Origin: Corynebacterium kalinowskii
GTDB lineage: Bacteria; Actinomycetota; Actinomycetes; Mycobacteriales; Mycobacteriaceae
Length of the DNA: 64,000 nt
Assembly (NCBI RefSeq): GCF_009734385.1
Contig: NZ_CP046452.1
Span: forward strand, 1,302,001-1,366,000
Direction: 5' to 3'
In this document: positions 58,775-64,000 of the stretch, piece after piece
How the letters are laid out: each line of letters begins with the position of its first letter
How positions within the stretch are numbered: position 1 is the first letter of the stretch
The notes under the pieces: model-generated
Seen by the model: only the letters and a program-made list of their open reading frames with translations
Told to the model about the DNA's origin: nothing
The model's database searches: none
Translations under genes and position numbers: made by a program

Positions 58775-58778
58775 CTGT

Positions 58779-58794
58779 TGTGGTCCCAGCTGGA
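58779..58794 (-). other. Candidate attL: 3' end of a tRNA gene
   Basis: On the minus strand TCCAGCTGGGACCACA reads as the end of a tRNA: T-stem half CCAGC, acceptor strand TGGGACC, discriminator A. No tRNA body lies to its right (58795 onward is unrelated), and the tRNA-like terminator follows. This is the pattern left when an element integrates in a tRNA 3' end. The matching acceptor would begin GGTCCCA. I cannot name the tRNA. Confidence 0.55.
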
Positions 58795-58806
58795 AACCAC
58801 CCACTA

Positions 58807-58824
58807 GACCTGTTTAGCCAGGTC
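58807..58824. other. Small hairpin inside the element's left end
   Basis: GACCTG-TTTAGC-CAGGTC, 6-bp stem with a 6-nt loop, 13 nt inside the attachment site. May be an integrase arm site or terminator. Confidence 0.35.
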
Positions 58825-59084
58825 ATGCCAGGCTTCACATTAACTACTTTTTCGCCGTGCCCTCATGCGTGCCCACGACTACATTTTTACCCCCGACATC
58901 CGCGCTGGTGAGATCCATTTTACCGGACAATCTGAAAACATGCGTTGACCTGCGGTTTTACAATTCGCCGGCGATGTTTGCCCAGCTCAGACCCTGTTTT
59001 TGGGCAAAACCGTGAAAAACGAGCCTGTCTAAGGCGTTAAAGATCGTCAGGCGACCTACTAGACCCCTCCGAGCTGTTAGGCGC

Positions 59085-59588
59085 TCAGCCGTGGATCTGG
59101 CTATACAGGGTGAGGATCTGGTCACTACTGCCAGGCACCCGCTCAGTGGTCACAGTTGAGGTTGGGGCGCTTCTCAATTCGCGAGTTCTACGCTCTGCCA
59201 TCTCACCCTGTGAGATTTGCCATCTCAGGCCTTCGCGAGCTGTTGGGGTGAGACCGAACGATACGAGCGACTTCTCCCAGGCCTGCGAGCACTTCAATCT
59301 CTCCGAGATCTTGTTATTCGGGTTGATGGCTTCCGCGAGAAAACGTGCTGCGTTGTACAGGCCGTGAACGTCCGAGCTAACCCATTCCGAGGACATGGGA
59401 GACCGGAAAATATCGCGCCACCACGCCTTGACCGGCTCAGGCCACGTTCTCCCCACTCCGAGGAACTGGTCAGCGGGTGGCAATTCCGGGATCTCGTTGT
59501 GCTCGTTCTTCTTGGGGTCTAATTGTTTGCTTGGCTTCCGCTGGTCTGGTCTGAGACCTCCAACTTTTGCTTTTCTCCCGCGTGTCAT
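59085..59588 (-). CDS. Phage terminase small subunit-like protein (TerS)
   Basis: 167 residues, ATG 59588 with AAGGAG. The layout is that of actinophage small terminases: basic N-terminus (RGRKAKVGGLRPDQRKPSKQ), TWPEPVKAWWRDIFRSPMSS, a helical core (LYNAARFLAEAINP) and the conserved FGLTPTAREGLRWQI near residue 115. TerS picks the pac/cos site for packaging. No TerL follows, so alone it would redirect a helper phage's packaging, as TerS of SaPIs does. It is the last gene before the attachment site. Confidence 0.65.
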   Translation of the reverse strand: MTRGRKAKVGGLRPDQRKPSKQLDPKKNEHNEIPELPPADQFLGVGRTWPEPVKAWWRDIFRSPMSSEWVSSDVHGLYNAARFLAEAINPNNKISERLKCSQAWEKSLVSFGLTPTAREGLRWQISQGEMAERRTRELRSAPTSTVTTERVPGSSDQILTLYSQIHG

Positions 59589-59611
59589 GTCTGCTCCTTC
59601 AAAATTGACAA

Positions 59612-59627
59612 TGTGATGTACGTCACA
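59612..59627. promoter_or_regulatory. GlxR/CRP-type binding site upstream of terS
   Basis: TGTGATGTACGTCACA is a perfect match to the corynebacterial GlxR (CRP) consensus TGTGANNTANNTCACA. It lies 24-39 nt upstream of the terS ATG. On the minus strand a TATGAT -10-like box overlaps its upstream edge, so binding would sit on the promoter and probably repress. The match is direct; regulation is inferred. Confidence 0.65.
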
Positions 59628-59910
59628 TCATATCAATTAAGCAACTCTTAACGCGGTTAATGTTCGATTTACTATATAAAAGCCTATTTTTACCAATTTC
59701 TTCAATAGCCAAAAGTACAGCACCGGAGGGGCGCGTGTGCCGACAGGTGGGGCTATCCCCGGCCACCCCTTGACGAGACCGGGGGTGCGCTCCTGCGCTG
59801 GTGTCGCTGCCTGTAAATATCGTCACGGTGACGGCTTTTGAGGGTGTGTCCGAGCGTGTGTCCGTAATGTGTCCACCGACTTTTTCACTGTTTGCGCAGG
59901 TCAGACCCTA

Positions 59911-59929
59911 TGTGTCTACTGTGTCTACC
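59911..59929 (+). repeat. Left 19-bp arm of an exact inverted repeat
   Basis: TGTGTCTACTGTGTCTACC, itself two tandem 9-bp iterons plus one base; its exact reverse complement is at 60013-60031. Confidence 0.9.
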
Positions 59930-60012
59930 ATTTTCGCGATGTGCGCTCGCTACAGTGTATGTACATATGCACCACCTCCCCCTTTATATATATATCTATA
60001 TCTATTAAAAAA

Positions 60013-60031
60013 GGTAGACACAGTAGACACA
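60013..60031 (-). repeat. Right 19-bp arm of an exact inverted repeat
   Basis: GGTAGACACAGTAGACACA on the plus strand, the exact reverse complement of 59911-59929. Confidence 0.9.
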
Positions 60032-60137
60032 CACAGACATCCCCCGAGGTCAGAGCTAATTTTTGTGTGTCCACTTTGGCCGAAAAAAGGCCGACATAAG
60101 GCCGACACACACCAGGAACAATGGACACAAAAGAAAA

Positions 60138-60177
60138 CCGCTCGTTGTGACCTCATAGGAGACCATCAAACGAGCGG
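60138..60177 (-). terminator. Terminator after the primase-helicase gene
   Basis: 9-bp stem CCGCTCGTT / AACGAGCGG around 22 nt; on the minus strand TTTTCTTTT follows. Starts 6 nt past the primase stop and would shield the origin from transcription. Confidence 0.75.
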
Positions 60178-60182
60178 AAGGG

Positions 60183-62915
60183 TTAGGCAGATTCGACCAG
60201 ATACAACGCCGGTTCATCACGCCATGAGATATTGCGGTAGCCAACACTACGGTTAGTCCTGCGATCCGTCGCATTCTTTCCATTGCGAGGAACCTTGAGC
60301 TTATGTTCACATCCCAACTCTGTCAGGTGGTACTTGAGAGCTGAGAGCGTGGCCTTATCGAATGACTCTCCACGGCTCAGTAGACCAGATTCTCGTGCGC
60401 GAACCTCAATCTCCACGATGGATAGGGAATCTCTCGAGTCTTCCGAGAACACCAGGTTCTCCTTGACGAACTGCCATACCGGATCGGCTTCACTCCAAAA
60501 ACGCTCCGTACCCTCCTTGAGCATCGGAGAATCATTCTCGCGGTTGAAGATGTCCACCTCACCAGTCTCACGACGTATCCAGCCACCAATGAGCTGTAGC
60601 AAAACCCAGTAACGCTGGTCATCATCCGTCATCCATTCGTAGCCATGATGTTTACGGCTAAAAGCGCGGATGTCGGACTCCCTGGCATCGCACCAGAATG
60701 CGAAAATACGTCTACGCATACCGGAATCACCGTTCCATGTTGGGGGTTCGTTCGTCTCACCTATCAACGTCGAGTTGAAGACTGCCTGTCTTTTGGTGCC
60801 GTTCTCCTTAGCTGAGATACCGCCACCGCCGAGAACCTGTTTCACCACGGCTTCCGCTGCATCGCTGTTCTTATCCACCTCTGACAGACGTACTGCGAAC
60901 CTGCCAGCTTCGACAAATAGGGAGTGCTGGTGTGAGTTGCCCGATGTCCGAGAACTCAGGTGCCCACTGTTGAGCTTGCCGAAAAGATCATGGTCTACAA
61001 GCCCCAGTCTCGTTTCATTGAACGAGGATGTAATCATGTCGAGGAAACCGGACTTACCAGAGCCACCAGAGCCAAACAGCCACGGCATAACCGCATTGCG
61101 AGAGTCTTTGGTCAGCACCTCCGAGAAAATATCCCAGAGCTGCTGTTGATCGCGGTCATCGGGCGCGAACACCTTCATGAACTCCTCCCCGGCAACGAGG
61201 TTGTTCTTTGGTTGGGCGCGTCGCTTCTCGTATGCTGCCTTGCCTGCTGCCACGTCAAACTTGAGGTAACGAGTCTCAATCTCGTTGCCCCCAAGCGGGC
61301 GCGTGATGATGTCAACCTCCCCAGTTCGTCGGTAGTGCTCGAGACAGAGCCTAAGATCAATGCATTGCCTGCCAGGTAGCCCAATAATGTCCGGGGTCGA
61401 GTTGAACCGGCTCCGAGGAACTTCTCTTCCAGCGTCGATAAGGGCGCTCTCAAGCTGCATAAGCTGCGCACTGCGCTTAGCGCCGTCATCCGCTAGTTGG
61501 ATGGCTCTCCGAACCTGTTCTCCGATATACGACTCTTTAGGGTTGTCAGAATCGACATCGAACCTGCTACGCAATTCCACCAGCAATGGGCGCACACGAT
61601 TCTTAATCTGCGAGTTAAGGTGAGCCTTCGAGACCTCCTCGAGGGTGTGGATATTGAGGATCGAGCCTTCCGAGGAAATCAGATCCGGCGACATGAGAGC
61701 CGTGATCTCAGCCAGCGCGTCACCTACGGAGAGAGTGTCCAGCCAGACAACGGACTTACCCACCAGCTCCGAGAAGGCCTTCTCTGCCTGCTCTGCGCCT
61801 GCAATGGTCGAGAAGTCGAGACCTTCCAGGAGGGCTGTCTTCTCAAGATAAGTCTTCCGCCCCTTCTCGATCTCTGCGCGAACTTTATTCACTTCACCAG
61901 TGACGGCACGCTGAAATTCGCCTTCCGTTGCGTGGTGAGACTTAGGGCGATCAAAGAAGGCCTTCCGAATGGTGCCCAGAGCCTTCTTAAGGCCTGGCTC
62001 ACCTTCAAACACGGCCAGGCGAATAGCCCAGCGTGTCACGGCGCAGAGCGCGTCATGGCTGTTGTTGTCCTGCCAGATCTCCGAGGAGAATTTCTTCGGT
62101 TCATCGCCGGTTAGCTCCGAGGTGAAAATGTCTCCGAGATCTCCGTCAATCTCTGGAGCGGAAGCCGTGAGCCACTGCATCGCCTTGCTGGTGCCGTAGG
62201 ACTCCCCAGTTGGAAGCTCAGGGTCACCAGCAACACCAGCGACCAGATAGTCAAACAGGGCAGAAGGCAGAGCCTGCGCCTTATCTAGTGAGAAGGTGGT
62301 TTCCTCGTCGCTAGTGCCCCGGTAGCACTTGTATTCTTTGCCATCCACGACAGAGCCGGGCGCGATACCGTATCTGTGACCCTTTTGGATCACGTCAACA
62401 TCTGCGCCACAGGAGCGCTGGAACTTATGGCCTGCTACCACGGTGAAGTAAAAGTGACCGGAAGGATTATCGGAGTCTCTGCGAGTTACCCGAATGGTCG
62501 AGTTGAGGATCTGGTCAGCGTCGAGACCTAGCTCCCCACACACCCGCTTGAAGCTCTCATAGCCTTGCTTGCCGTCATACTGGTCAACGTCGAGGATTAT
62601 TACCTCTTGCTCAGTTCCGGGGATCTGCTGCACTCTCACGCCGGTATTGCAGCCAGCGGGTGCGTTATCCCAGAGCTTCTTAATCTCATCGAGCGTCAGG
62701 TTAGGGATGTTGCCCGTGCAGCCCTGAGCAGGCGGGAACTTTTGGCCTGCTGGTAGTGGAAACAGCGCGAGACCGTTCTTAAAATGGGTAGTGACTGCGG
62801 TCACATCGTATGGTAGACTCAAGGGGAACTCCTTCAAATGGTAGTGGTTGATAACCTCCGTTTTGGTGTGAAGCTCCCGGCGTTGTGAACCGGGAGCTTT
62901 GCTCTTGGTGGACAT
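60183..62915 (-). CDS. Prim-pol / SF3 helicase replication protein
   Basis: 910 residues from ATG 62915. N-terminal archaeo-eukaryotic primase-polymerase domain: THFKNGLALFPLPAGQKFPP, VIILDVDQYDG (DxD), SGHFYFTV, ADVDVIQKGHRYGIAPGSV. C-terminal D5-type SF3 helicase: Walker A FGSGGSGKSGFLDM near 645, Walker B-like FAVRLSEVDKNSD, motif C NSTLIGETNEPPTW, GMRRRIFAFW arginine. Likely starts replication at the nearby iterons. A TTG at 62822 behind AAGGAG gives MSLPYDVTAVTTHF, a typical prim-pol beginning (879 residues), so the true start is open. Confidence 0.85.
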   Translation of the reverse strand: MSTKSKAPGSQRRELHTKTEVINHYHLKEFPLSLPYDVTAVTTHFKNGLALFPLPAGQKFPPAQGCTGNIPNLTLDEIKKLWDNAPAGCNTGVRVQQIPGTEQEVIILDVDQYDGKQGYESFKRVCGELGLDADQILNSTIRVTRRDSDNPSGHFYFTVVAGHKFQRSCGADVDVIQKGHRYGIAPGSVVDGKEYKCYRGTSDEETTFSLDKAQALPSALFDYLVAGVAGDPELPTGESYGTSKAMQWLTASAPEIDGDLGDIFTSELTGDEPKKFSSEIWQDNNSHDALCAVTRWAIRLAVFEGEPGLKKALGTIRKAFFDRPKSHHATEGEFQRAVTGEVNKVRAEIEKGRKTYLEKTALLEGLDFSTIAGAEQAEKAFSELVGKSVVWLDTLSVGDALAEITALMSPDLISSEGSILNIHTLEEVSKAHLNSQIKNRVRPLLVELRSRFDVDSDNPKESYIGEQVRRAIQLADDGAKRSAQLMQLESALIDAGREVPRSRFNSTPDIIGLPGRQCIDLRLCLEHYRRTGEVDIITRPLGGNEIETRYLKFDVAAGKAAYEKRRAQPKNNLVAGEEFMKVFAPDDRDQQQLWDIFSEVLTKDSRNAVMPWLFGSGGSGKSGFLDMITSSFNETRLGLVDHDLFGKLNSGHLSSRTSGNSHQHSLFVEAGRFAVRLSEVDKNSDAAEAVVKQVLGGGGISAKENGTKRQAVFNSTLIGETNEPPTWNGDSGMRRRIFAFWCDARESDIRAFSRKHHGYEWMTDDDQRYWVLLQLIGGWIRRETGEVDIFNRENDSPMLKEGTERFWSEADPVWQFVKENLVFSEDSRDSLSIVEIEVRARESGLLSRGESFDKATLSALKYHLTELGCEHKLKVPRNGKNATDRRTNRSVGYRNISWRDEPALYLVESA
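62873..62897 (-). promoter_or_regulatory. Hairpin in the primase leader or 5' coding part
   Basis: Inverted repeat GCTCCCGG / CCGGGAGC, 9-nt loop. If translation begins at TTG 62822, this is a leader hairpin between the mini-gene and the primase; if at ATG 62915, it lies within codons 7-14. Confidence 0.5.
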
Positions 62916-62918
62916 CGT

Positions 62919-63017
62919 TTAGGCCACCTGCTGTTGTTCTTCGTTGAGATCATCGTCAAGGTCGTACAGATACCTAGTCAACGGCTCTTCTTGTTGCTCG
63001 TATAGGTAGGCGACCAT
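62919..63017 (-). CDS. 32-residue acidic mini-protein upstream of the primase
   Basis: ATG 63017, TAA 62919-62921, ending 3 nt before the primase ATG. Highly acidic and Gln-rich: MVAYLYEQQEEPLTRYLYD then LDDDLNEEQQQVA. Two copies of a 12-residue pattern (AYLYEQQEEPLT, RYLYDLDDDLN) resemble the units of the 51-residue protein at 63509. The tight spacing suggests coupling to the primase. Function unknown; small size makes this a candidate only. Confidence 0.5.
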   Translation of the reverse strand: MVAYLYEQQEEPLTRYLYDLDDDLNEEQQQVA

Positions 63018-63044
63018 GCCGGTCTTATTGAACACTTTGACCAA

Positions 63045-63227
63045 CTACGCCACCCGCTCAGGGTTTTGTGCCTTGATCCAGGCTTCTACTTCATCGACCG
63101 GATACCGGACGGCCCCTTCGATCTTGACGAACGGCGGGCCAATTTTTCGCGAGCGCCAGTTAGCCAGCGTGGTGGCCTTGATTCCTGTCGCTTCTTCCAG
63201 CACGTTTGCTGAAATATATTGCTTCAT
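63045..63227 (-). CDS. AlpA/excisionase-like helix-turn-helix protein
   Basis: 60 residues from ATG 63227 (AGGAG 8 nt before); the longer frame from 63296 has no good start. Single winged HTH of the MerR/HTH_17 kind: ISANVLEEATGIKATTLANW, then RSRKIGPPFVKIEGAVRYP and VDEVEAWIKA. Such proteins act as excisionases or, in enterobacterial satellites, as AlpA activators of excision. 27 nt upstream of the mini-gene, so in the primase operon. Confidence 0.75.
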   Translation of the reverse strand: MKQYISANVLEEATGIKATTLANWRSRKIGPPFVKIEGAVRYPVDEVEAWIKAQNPERVA

Positions 63228-63324
63228 CCTTAATACTCCTATTCTCGTTGATTGGATGTTTCTCATTAACCATATCACAAATTCCCGAAATTTCACCCCA
63301 CGACGGGGGTATTGACTTGCACCC

Positions 63325-63337
63325 CTTTAAATTAAAG
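63325..63337. promoter_or_regulatory. Palindrome upstream of the HTH gene
   Basis: CTTTAA-A-TTAAAG, perfect 6+1+6, about 100 bp upstream of the HTH start; likely an operator. Confidence 0.4.
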
Positions 63338-63394
63338 TGTAGGGCGTTTTAGGTTTTAGGTGTGTTAGAATCTTCTCAGAGCTTCCAAAACGGC

Positions 63395-63419
63395 AAGCTC
63401 ATGAACATGTTCATAGCTT
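63395..63419. promoter_or_regulatory. 25-bp interrupted palindrome, candidate operator
   Basis: Core ATGAACATGTTCAT (63401-63414) is a perfect 14-bp palindrome flanked by AAGCT and AGCTT. It lies in the 281-bp gap before the HTH operon, a plausible target of the element's master repressor. Confidence 0.5.
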
Positions 63420-63449
63420 CTACCCAGAGGTTCGACGTGCTTAATAATT

Positions 63450-63507
63450 CAGCACAACGCCCGGCGCACCCGCTCCCAGACCAGAGAACGCGCCGGGCGT
63501 TGTGCTG
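63450..63507 (-). terminator. 18-bp perfect hairpin after the 51-residue gene
   Basis: CAGCACAACGCCCGGCGC and its exact complement around a 22-nt loop, starting 1 nt past the mini-gene stop. No T run follows, so termination is probable but not certain; an RNA structural role is possible. Confidence 0.6.
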
Positions 63508-63508
63508 T

Positions 63509-63664
63509 CTAGCCCTCTAAGGAGTCTGCGTAGCACCCAGTCATCTTGGGTGGCAAGTACTTAGCTAGGCCTGTCTCGCTCTCCTGCTCGAGGTAGCGTC
63601 CTAATCCTGTCTCGCTCTCCCGCTCGAGGTATTTCTCAAGGCTTCCAGAATCAAAATTGTCCAT
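63509..63664 (-). CDS. 51-residue repeat mini-protein
   Basis: ATG 63664 follows the upstream TAG with no gap (TAGATG). After MDNFDSGSLE come 12-residue repeats KYLERESETGLG and RYLEQESETGLA, then KYLPPK and a short tail MTGCYADSLEG. The DNA repeat is visible too. The repeats look like helical, charged units. No family recognised; similar units occur in the 32-residue protein at 62919. Tight coupling to the upstream gene supports translation. Confidence 0.6.
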   Translation of the reverse strand: MDNFDSGSLEKYLERESETGLGRYLEQESETGLAKYLPPKMTGCYADSLEG

Positions 63665-63988
63665 CTACGCCACCGCCTTAACCACGCCTGCTGGTGGGTA
63701 GATCATGACGTATGGCATACCTGTTTCGTCTTCGTCCCAGTCGAGAGTGAATCCGAGGGCTTCCAAGTTCTCCTGTTCAGCCTGCATTCTCTTGTAGCCG
63801 TGACCGTAATTAAACAGCCAATAGCCATGCTCTTCGATACCGTGAACCCACCATCGGCAATTGTGGACATACCGACGCAGCAATTCGCAAACAGACTCAG
63901 CCGGTGCCATGCCTTCGTTGGGTGGCATGACGGAGTACCCGGCGACGATATTCGAGAAAAATGACTGAGAGTCGTAATGGCCTTCCAT
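63665..63988 (-). CDS. Hypothetical protein of the element
   Basis: 107 residues, ATG 63988. Aromatic-rich: SVCELLRRYVHNCRWWVHGIEEHGYWLFNYGHGYKRMQAEQE, then FTLDWDEDETGMPYVMIYPPAG. No signal or membrane segment. I recognise no family; such small proteins are usual in phage and satellite early regions. First gene visible from the right; coupled to the 51-residue gene. Confidence 0.6.
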   Translation of the reverse strand: MEGHYDSQSFFSNIVAGYSVMPPNEGMAPAESVCELLRRYVHNCRWWVHGIEEHGYWLFNYGHGYKRMQAEQENLEALGFTLDWDEDETGMPYVMIYPPAGVVKAVA

Positions 63989-64000
63989 GACAACCTCAAC

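Follow-up and report, generated by a model that had tools for sequence, protein, structure and literature searches.

The right end of the analysed window, a 64,000-nucleotide stretch of the Corynebacterium kalinowskii genome, raises the question of whether its replication gene and its lone terminase small subunit gene (terS) belong to a phage satellite, an integrative plasmid or a prophage remnant. The original prediction was a candidate satellite resembling the phage-inducible chromosomal islands (PICIs). A literature search found no published phage satellite in Corynebacterium; PMC6092414 and PMC10690885 do not mention the genus, and a section of PMC10023795 describes phage-satellite experiments in Actinobacteria as lagging behind.

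Extent and gene content of the element

The sequence was extended to the right, which delimited an element (e1) of 8,461 bp (approximately 8.5 kb). The proposed attachment remnant is an 18-bp repeat (TGTTGTGGTCCCAGCTGG); its second copy, 8,461 bp rightward, lies at the 3' terminus of a complete tRNA-Val(CAC). The tyrosine integrase, intact tRNA and second att site sought in this direction were all found there, and the integrase gene is uninterrupted; the expected size of about 10-16 kb turned out to be too large for e1, which measures 8.46 kb. Besides the two arm-type repeats at the att core, four further CGTGCCC[TA][CA] copies lie at the opposite end of e1, just 5' of int (L002:11091-11127), and CGTGCCC occurs only once elsewhere in e1. 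We infer that these repeats are the arm sites of the integrase.

Table 1. Features of e1; positions above 64000 lie beyond the window, with its numbering continued.
Feature	Position	Strand	Remark
Distal att core, remnant of the tRNA-Val 3' end	58776..58793	.	18-bp exact repeat TGTTGTGGTCCCAGCTGG
Two putative integrase arm-type repeats, CGTGCCCTC / CGTGCCCAC	58856..58876	+	adjoin att core
Distal block, 177 bp	58915..59091	-	94% identity to sister element e2
terS, terminase small subunit, 167 aa	59085..59588	-	Pfam Terminase_7 E 3.6e-12
cosN-like site	59715..59732	-	0 mismatches to GCCCCTNCGGTGCTGTAC
Left arm of cos region, G-run then C-run	59733..59780	-	by eye, no statistic
Iteron cluster, candidate replication origin	59845..60129	.	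TGTGTC/GACACA, 10 hexamers
Motif GGTCTGACCTGCGCAAAC	59890..59907	-	between iterons
Prim-Pol / helicase replication gene, 910 aa	60183..62915	-	Pfam Prim-Pol E 3e-13
Small HTH_17 gene (excisionase/AlpA-like), 60 aa	63045..63227	-	Pfam HTH_17 E 3.4e-7; PHROG E 3e-8
Perfect 18-bp inverted repeat (terminator-like hairpin)	63450..63507	.	
51-aa ORF	63509..63664	-	no family; doubtful as a gene
280-aa gene	63665..64000, whole to 64507	-	no family; cut by window end
175-aa HTH gene	64482-65009	-	
70-aa HTH gene	65207-65419	-	
122-aa gene	65527-65895	-	no family
Tyrosine integrase, 398 aa	65892-67088	-	tRNA end of e1
tRNA-Val	67241-67313	-	

All genes of e1 lie on the minus strand, in agreement with the predicted single orientation. 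The search of the nine e1 proteins against Pfam and PHROG yielded no match to TerL, portal or capsid families, the 51-, 122- and 280-aa proteins being without any family; the 280-aa protein shares 26% identity with the 279-aa product of the gene in the equivalent position of the sister element e2. The sole "tail" label in e1 comes from PHROG, which calls the family of the terS product "minor tail protein"; other evidence contradicts this name. Structural or TerL genes, or a missing integrase or second att site, had been named in advance as findings that would speak against a satellite, and neither was encountered. With its own integrase, two att sites and no recognised TerL, head or tail genes, e1 has the general features of a phage satellite.

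Three HTH_17 proteins are encoded in e1, and PHROG excisionase/regulator matches were obtained. The 60-aa protein, scanned minus its first residue, matched the family "excisionase and transcriptional regulator". The helix-turn-helix part of the AlpA-like assignment was thereby borne out, but the Pfam scan gave no hit to the AlpA family of that database. No PICI-type master repressor, Ccm, CpmAB or capsid-size/head-size gene was recognised in e1, and conjugation families were matched neither in Pfam (nine proteins) nor in NCBIfam (four of the nine). PADLOC, run on three of the nine proteins, returned a single match, in which the HTH of the 175-aa protein aligned with mad1 (E 3.6e-6), and the tRNA alone exceeded the gathering score in the Rfam scan. 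The 177-bp distal block had only matches shorter than 30 bp elsewhere in 242 genus genomes. Its interpretation as a phage cos was unconvincing (105/200 shuffles equally good), as was that as a structured RNA, since folding stood out from the shuffles by no more than 0 to 1 sd, apart from one strand of the e2 copy (2.1 sd).

Replication module

The Prim-Pol domain of the 910-aa protein and its Walker A motif (GSGGSGKS at residue 615) support the predicted prim-pol/SF3 gene, but the C-terminal P4-type helicase/primase match (TIGR01613, E 1.2e-14) was weak and, at 53.9 bits, fell below the cut-off of 108.7. The gene matched 153 of 50,697 phage records as compared with 1 of 72,556 plasmid records. 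These phage matches span at most ~40% of the gene, reach 80% coverage in none of the 153 records and, among the matches listed, correspond to its N-terminal part. Primase matches occurred in 7 of 201 genomes, one of them (G057) at E 9.4e-4. The candidate origin withstood scrutiny: TAGACACA has four copies in 594 bp, a count that no 8-mer exceeded or equalled in 200 shuffles (maximum 3), and the region contains a 24-bp inverted repeat. The gene order typical of PICIs (int, regulator, pri/rep, ori, packaging genes) was also found in e1.

TerS and the cos site

The assignment of the TerS gene near the attachment site was confirmed. Its product is 43% identical over the full 167 aa to the annotated TerS of phage Darwin, Zion and Darwin being the closest relatives, and among the 377 matching phage records (of 50,697) the best were Corynebacterium phages (43%). 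An alignment with seven relatives revealed 35 invariant columns. A Darwin-type TerL was also present in 60 of 74 IMG/VR loci with an e1-type TerS. The genome of e1 contains only one TerL match (25% identity, 978 kb from e1). TerS matches were detected in 4/201 genomes; that of G153 (E 4.6e-7) has an internal stop, and this genome has no TerL match. The predicted TerS structure had a mean pLDDT of 75.6. Its structure search returned no solved structure at E <= 0.001, with solved TerS proteins only at E 3 and above, and a profile search of solved structures returned no TerS.

The window was scanned with GCCCCTNCGGTGCTGTAC, which represents the joined genome ends of Corynebacterium phage Zion and leaves one position undefined; all 17 fixed bases were matched in e1. 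The Zion junction is near-identical in Darwin and P1201. Setting the e1 site beside the genome-end junctions of seven phages predicts a cut between 59720 and 59719, with a 10-nt overhang at 59720-59729 (CCTCCGGTGC); for P1201, a cohesive end of 10 nt is annotated in the equivalent position. The site lies 131 bp 5' of terS in e1 and 93 bp in Darwin and Zion. To the left, a pattern similar to the G-run/C-run is seen by eye in Darwin, Zion, P1201 and sister elements. To the right, the arm adjoining the cut in Darwin, Zion, e2 and G184 (GCGAYAGTTG.GGAAA) is absent from e1.

Searching with the short cos pattern gave 20 IMG/VR contigs for the exact form and 71/242 genomes when two mismatches were allowed. 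Since the e1-family TerS was absent from these contigs and from 12 genome loci with the short pattern, the pattern alone is unspecific. A gapped pattern derived from Darwin, e2 and G184 had no hits in the 242 genus genomes other than e2 and G184, which it must match by construction; its reversed form occurred at one place. Judged by its sequence, e1 appears to carry the packaging signal of a helper phage.

Sister elements

Six further elements share the layout of e1, one in the same genome (e2) and five in other Corynebacterium genomes. The seven elements measure 8.5-16.4 kb, and in each the integrase lies at an RNA gene, the ends are marked by direct repeats and a replication gene is found in between. 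The tRNA-Val(CAC) site is occupied by e1, G184 and G156. The Prim-Pol half is common to e1 and e2, while the helicase half and the iterons differ. At 16.4 kb, e2 also contains a type III restriction system, and in two sister elements an HNH endonuclease gene takes the position of the e1 TerS.

The cos was tested by local alignment of the phage cos (85 bp) with the whole elements, using 60 shuffles each. In 4/7 elements (e1, e2, G155 and G184), the alignments with both the Darwin and the Zion cos beat 60/60 shuffles, on the gene strand and spanning the cut. G003 was borderline (2/60 and 1/60 shuffles equally good for Darwin and Zion, respectively), G187 was not significant (31/60 and 15/60), and G156 has no cos. 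The six sister elements therefore comprise three with a clear phage-like cos in the equivalent place, two doubtful cases and one without. The P1201 cos aligned weakly with e1 (2/60 shuffles equally good) and was not outstanding for G184, G003, G187 and G156 (6, 17, 53 and 56 of 60). A strict pattern (<=3 mismatches) found no cos in e2; a weight matrix whose training set included e1 and G155 located it, and so did a second matrix built from phages only as well as local alignment. Because e2, G155 and G184 have the cos without any TerS match, TerS seems dispensable among such elements.

Proposed mechanism and alternative explanations

We consider it highly probable that e1 is a phage satellite that integrates and is packaged by way of its cos, with TerL, capsid and tail supplied by a phage of the Zion/P1201 type. 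When this phage infects, the HTH genes of e1 would be switched on, and e1 would be excised and then replicated from the iterons into concatemers. The satellite TerS with the helper TerL would cut these at the e1 cos, and the DNA would be packed into heads made by the helper, either as 8.46-kb units in small heads or as multimers in heads of full size. In the next cell, it would circularise via the 10-nt ends and then integrate. As helper we predict a phage that does not reside in the genome of e1. The resident prophage (TerL 2339350-2340987, TerS 2340991-2341428) was rejected for this role: similarity between its TerS and that of e1 is marginal (E 0.03-0.04), and its terS region, compared with the cos side of e1 for three stretches, showed no match (shuffles equally good in 13, 18 and 30 cases of 100). 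We also rejected the agreement of eight 8.46-kb units (67.7 kb) with the Darwin genome as evidence, because any small unit has some fitting multiple.

In an unlikely variant, the satellite TerS would be a decoy that poisons the helper terminase, and helper TerS and TerL would package at the satellite cos. The apparent dispensability of TerS suits this variant, whereas the invariant columns, conserved across all seven aligned relatives, and the location of the e1 TerS beside its cos, as in the phages, argue against it. The e1 right arm, unlike those of the phages, would also be expected if e1 has its own TerS. For the satellite family as a whole, we tentatively suggest a modular packaging cassette on a Zion/P1201-type cos, an idea to which we give somewhat less than even weight. 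Here e2, G184 and partly G155 would keep the helper cosN with the phage-like right arm and use the helper TerS, some members have HNH genes at this place, and e1 would have replaced the arm and acquired its own TerS. The helper's cut site would thus be combined with private recognition, the cos counterpart of redirection by TerS in pac SaPIs.

An integrative plasmid-like element, a Prim-Pol/iteron replicon with an integrase that acquired a cos-terS piece from a phage through recombination and that phages do not mobilise, appears improbable. Its Prim-Pol and iterons do resemble those of plasmids, and e2 would fit with its restriction system, its missing TerS match and the helicase half and iterons that differ from e1 behind a common Prim-Pol half. 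Against this stand the clear cos in equal place and strand in 4/7 elements despite their different integrases, the HNH genes at the terS position in two, the excess of phage over plasmid records among the Prim-Pol matches and the lack of conjugation family matches among the e1 proteins scanned (nine in Pfam, four in NCBIfam). A Zion/P1201-type prophage of which only the ends are left is less probable still: TerS and Prim-Pol are related to proteins of such phages, but the att pair has an uninterrupted integrase, one plan extends across seven elements, the Prim-Pol phage matches cover only part of the gene, and TerL matches in the 242 genus genomes, with E 2e-32 and 28% identity at best, are weak as compared with many IMG/VR TerL proteins at ~42% identity and E near 1e-124. 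The satellite is favoured over both because the cos site resembles that of a defined phage group and sister elements of like layout exist.

Comparison with known satellites

Cos-type PICIs and cos SaPIs are described in PMC5052747 and PMC6092414 as islands with an integrase, a regulator, a primase-replication gene, an origin and a copied helper cos, without structural genes. In these features e1 resembles SaPIbov5 and EcCICFT073. It differs in having terS and cos together, in its single orientation and actinobacterial host, in the lack of a recognised PICI-type repressor, Ccm or CpmAB, and in size (8.46 kb vs ~14 kb for cos SaPIs). The term "PICI-like" is apt for the expected mode of working, but e1 is not filed as a PICI, since neither a master repressor of the PICI kind nor a hit to Pfam AlpA was found; it should nevertheless work like a cos-type PICI. 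The pac SaPIs with their own TerS likewise have TerS without TerL, meant to steer the helper TerL, whereas the site beside the e1 TerS is cos-like and not pac. A capsid-forming PICI (cfPICI) would be expected to have its own capsid, portal and TerL genes, which were not recognised in e1.

The P4-like satellites share with e1 an integrase, a helper-shared cos and HTH regulators, and perhaps a P4-family primase/helicase, for which the e1 match is weak and below the cut-off. P4 is not known to have a TerS, whereas e1 does, and no P4 head-size gene was recognised in e1. The Streptomyces satellites MulchRoom and MiniFlayer are also satellites of Actinomycetota and encode TerL, portal and capsid but no primase, according to the relevant sections of PMC10690885; e1 is the reverse, with a primase and no recognised TerL, portal or capsid. 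The same sections attribute a portal protein to predicted Actinomycetota PICIs, whereas no portal was recognised in e1. The Zierdtviridae phages Zion, Darwin and P1201 share the TerS family, the cos junction and the N-terminal Prim-Pol domain (31-34% identity) but are, by their records, complete phages of 66-71 kb.

Implications

A set of related elements, a predicted helper group and a packaging cut predicted to the base make helper dependence directly testable, and members with and without TerS offer a built-in comparison for TerS specificity. Because one sister element, e2, carries a restriction system, such elements may carry phage defence genes between hosts.

Boundaries and gene content of the element

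Rightward extension in the closed source genome (2,510,218 bp) made the whole element (e1) visible. Its 18-bp att core recurs 8,461 bp away as the 3' end of an intact tRNA-Val(CAC), which confirmed the tRNA-3' attachment remnant of the original prediction. Both the tRNA and the tyrosine integrase sought to the right of the window were found there, side by side. As anticipated, the nine ORFs assigned between the repeats share one orientation, and none matched the terminase large subunit, portal, or capsid families. Repeats of CGTGCCC[TA][CA] occur twice by the distal att core and four times immediately upstream of int, with CGTGCCC found once elsewhere in e1; they look like integrase arm sites.

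An empty site was sought by comparing the joined e1 flanks with 31 genomes, including its own. Among the matches listed, none from a relative spanned the join beyond the tRNA end, the left flank of e1 being poorly conserved. In one relative (G018), a left-flank gene piece lies about 1.5 kb from tRNA-Val, as compared with about 9 kb in the genome of e1. The shorter spacing weakly suggests an empty site there.

Features of e1 and of related loci (plain coordinates refer to the window; G, genus genomes; L, loci from such genomes)
Feature	Location	Strand	Size	Remark
e1			8,461 bp between repeats	tRNA-Val(CAC)
att core of e1, distal copy	58776-58793		18 bp	TGTTGTGGTCCCAGCTGG
e1 tyrosine integrase		-	398 aa	adjoins tRNA
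e1 ORF		-	122 aa	follows integrase in gene list
e1 HTH_17 protein		-	70 aa
e1 HTH_17 protein		-	175 aa
e1 ORF		-	280 aa
e1 ORF		-	51 aa
e1 HTH_17 protein		-	60 aa
e1 Prim-Pol/helicase		-	910 aa
e1 TerS		-	167 aa
e1 cos-like site	59715-59732	-
e1 motif GGTCTGACCTGCGCAAAC	59890-59907			between iterons
e1/e2 shared block	58915-59091; G000:C1:784275-784451		177 bp
e2	G000:C1:768199-784595 (L016/L017)		16.38 kb	own genome; tRNA-Met
G155 element			8.99 kb	tRNA-Met
G187 element			9.10 kb	tRNA-Met
G184 element			11.26 kb	tRNA-Val; transposase gene inside
G003 element			9.37 kb	tmRNA
G156 element			14.04 kb	tRNA-Val; IS-like part (by eye)
Lipoprotein-like genes, G155 and G184	L219:12100-12663, L221:4153-4698
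Membrane-protein-like gene, e2	L017:1030-1617
Motif GGTCTGASSTGSGCAAAC places	L199, L206, L207, L211, L217, 59890-59907, L032, L034, L205
Resident prophage	about 2.31-2.35 Mb (G000:C1 about 2316-2348 kb; L059, L060)

A phage-like cos site in e1

The gap of about 0.6 kb that separates the Prim-Pol gene from terS was first compared with the genome ends of the Corynebacterium phage Darwin. In the best alignment, 22 of 25 columns are identical; it spans the point where the two phage ends join, and its score of 33 exceeded the maximum of 30 in 200 shuffles, this being one of six stretch-by-target comparisons. The genome-end junctions of seven related phages were then compared with one another. The junction (slash) reads GCGCGCCCCTACGGTGC/TGTAC in Zion, GGCCCCTTCGGTGC/TGCAT in P1201, whose record annotates the last 10 nt as the cohesive end, and CACGCGCCCCTCCGGTGC/TGTAC in e1. 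Four phages of Gordonia and Rhodococcus have a different core, CCGCGTAC/TG. With one free position, the Zion junction has a single exact match in the window. This site is 131 bp upstream of terS, while Darwin and Zion are cut 93 bp upstream of theirs. A 20-base version of this pattern allowing up to two mismatches matched the own genome at this site only; genus-wide, 71 of 242 genomes match, and a weak match by itself is therefore of little significance.

Search for the cos site across seven related elements

Relatives of the Prim-Pol gene were found in 7/201 genus genomes, the own genome counted; the seven-element set excludes one weak match (G057). All seven elements have an integrase at an RNA gene, terminal direct repeats of 14-18 bp, and a central replication gene. 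Pfam Prim-Pol was recognized in five of the six replication proteins scanned (e1, G187, G184, G003, and G156), and G155 gave DUF3987 only. The protein of the sister element e2, outside these six, has an N-terminal part nearly that of e1.

An 85-bp phage cos piece was aligned with each whole element and with 60 shuffles, in search of a cos-like junction on the gene strand in the stretch from the replication gene to the distal att site. With the Darwin and Zion queries, e1, e2, G155, and G184 outscored every shuffle, with alignments across the cut. G003 was borderline (2 and 1 shuffles as good, respectively), and G187 (31 and 15) and G156 (40 and 51) were not significant. The P1201 query set only e2 and G155 apart from every shuffle (shuffles as good: e1, 2; G184, 6; G003, 17; G187, 53; G156, 56). 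With a weight matrix derived solely from the three corynephages, the number of shuffles, out of 300, that reached the best distal match was 0 for e1 and G155, 4 for e2 and G003, 28 for G156, and 134 for G187; it was 150 for G184, in which the resemblance to the phage cos lies in the arms, not in the cut site (cosN). The best scores were 23.6 (e1), 22.3 (G155), 15.8 (e2), 14.8 (G003), and 9.1-13.5 (remaining elements), versus 9.7-14.3 in the chromosomal flanks of the seven loci. By eye, the left arm of G187 resembles that of G155, and a NUMOD4/HNH endonuclease gene adjoins the cos-site position in both; in phage NatB6, an HNH gene lies in the stretch from the left end to TerS.

Right of the cut, Darwin, Zion, e2, and G184 carry GCGAYAGTTG.GGAAA or a one-change form (CGCGACAGTTGGGGAAA in Darwin and Zion), G155 carries ACGATAGTTCGGGGAA, and e1 has none of this arm after the cut. 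Darwin, e2, and G184 were the source of the gapped pattern GTGCTGYAN{8,16}CGAYAGTTG, which by construction recovers e2 and G184; it has no further match in 242 genomes (reversed pattern, one place). As a hypothesis from few sequences, members without TerS may use the TerS of the helper and keep its binding arm, and e1 would have its own pair.

The e2 cargo comprises a type III restriction-modification system and a NOV_C-domain protein. A small lipoprotein-like, Thr/Val-rich gene is nearly identical at the distal ends of G155 and G184, and a membrane-protein-like gene of e2 has a similar TVTxTxT stretch; these are candidate surface or exclusion genes. An essentially non-coding block of e1 and e2 shows 94% identity, versus 85-86% in their shared coding parts. 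It includes a form of GGTCTGASSTGSGCAAAC, and a piece like its TTYAACGCCTTAGA..GTTTTTCA recurs by eye toward the distal end of both G155 and G187.

Replication module

The predicted prim-pol replication gene was supported by a Pfam Prim-Pol match. The first ~380 residues of the e1 and e2 proteins are nearly the same, while the helicase halves are poorly alike and the iterons differ (TAGACACA in e1, TTACGGAA in e2), which suggests that helicase half and iterons were swapped as one unit. Allowing one mismatch, GGTCTGASSTGSGCAAAC has 30 places across 25 of the 242 genus genomes; three of these places are in e1 and e2 (reversed pattern, 7 places). Three to five DnaA-like boxes surround each of five places, of which three adjoin rplI/ssb genes, with dnaB apparently next (by eye). 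The motif is among repeated 8-mers in e1, L205, L032, and L034; most remaining places have neither feature. The motif could serve actinobacteria in general as an origin or priming element.

TerS and the predicted helper

The lone TerS gene held up: Pfam Terminase_7, the annotation of other phage records, and a neighboring TerL in many contigs identify the protein. The PHROG name of the family, "minor tail protein" (phrog_226, E 2.3e-25), is apparently a wrong name that was propagated; several RefSeq phage records also bear it (NC_055758.1, NC_055755.1, NC_055763.1). Relatives occur in phages of Corynebacterium, Gordonia, Rhodococcus, and Mycobacterium, with a few of Nocardia and Mycolicibacterium. 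A profile of eight TerS, which includes that of e1 and thus matches it by construction, matched 4/242 genus genomes; the other three matches (G210, G205, G056) are weak (best E 3.6e-8), and each adjoins a TerL. As a single query, e1 TerS matched 4/201 genomes, its own among them; the matches in G056 and G118 adjoin TerL, and G153 (E 4.6e-7) has a stop. A TerS of either phage or satellite origin, on a 2.3-kb metagenome contig (P0002), shares 48% identity with that of e1 and 58% with that of Zion.

The Darwin TerL matched 36 of 242 genus genomes at all (best E 2e-32, 28% identity), and no prophage closely similar to either Darwin or Zion came up in this search. Therefore, the predicted helper is an infecting phage. 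The title of the P1201 paper reportedly calls this phage lytic. The resident prophage, whose TerS and TerL lie next to each other, is not of the predicted helper type; both proteins differ.

Comparison with known satellites

According to the portions of the sources available, pac SaPIs bring their own TerS and proteobacterial PICIs produce a protein redirecting the helper TerS (PMC10023795, PMC10690885, PMC6092414, PMC5052747, PMC6132909 jointly), while packaging of cos SaPIs and EcCICFT073 is left to the helper terminase, which acts at a copied cos (PMC6092414, PMC5052747). Like the pac SaPIs, the e1 element has its own TerS; it also has a phage-like cos. Unlike cos SaPIs and EcCICFT073, it combines a cos-like site with its own TerS. 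Capsid-forming PICIs bring both terminase subunits, whereas e1 has TerS without a recognized TerL. Capsid-forming PICIs aside, the parts of the open-access literature covered (including PMC5506516) yielded no description of a satellite that pairs a TerS of its own with the cos of a helper. Within the same scope, satellite homologues, including predicted PICIs, have been reported in Actinomycetota genomes (PMC10690885), and it has been proposed that small elements of actinobacteria "could belong" to satellites, with validation "lagging behind" (PMC10023795).

The PICI-like reading stands for the predicted mode of working and does not extend to membership by descent. Judged by its sequence, e1 is complete, and it is probably a functional cos-type satellite. 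It is one of seven related elements in the genus, four of which have a clear phage-like cos.
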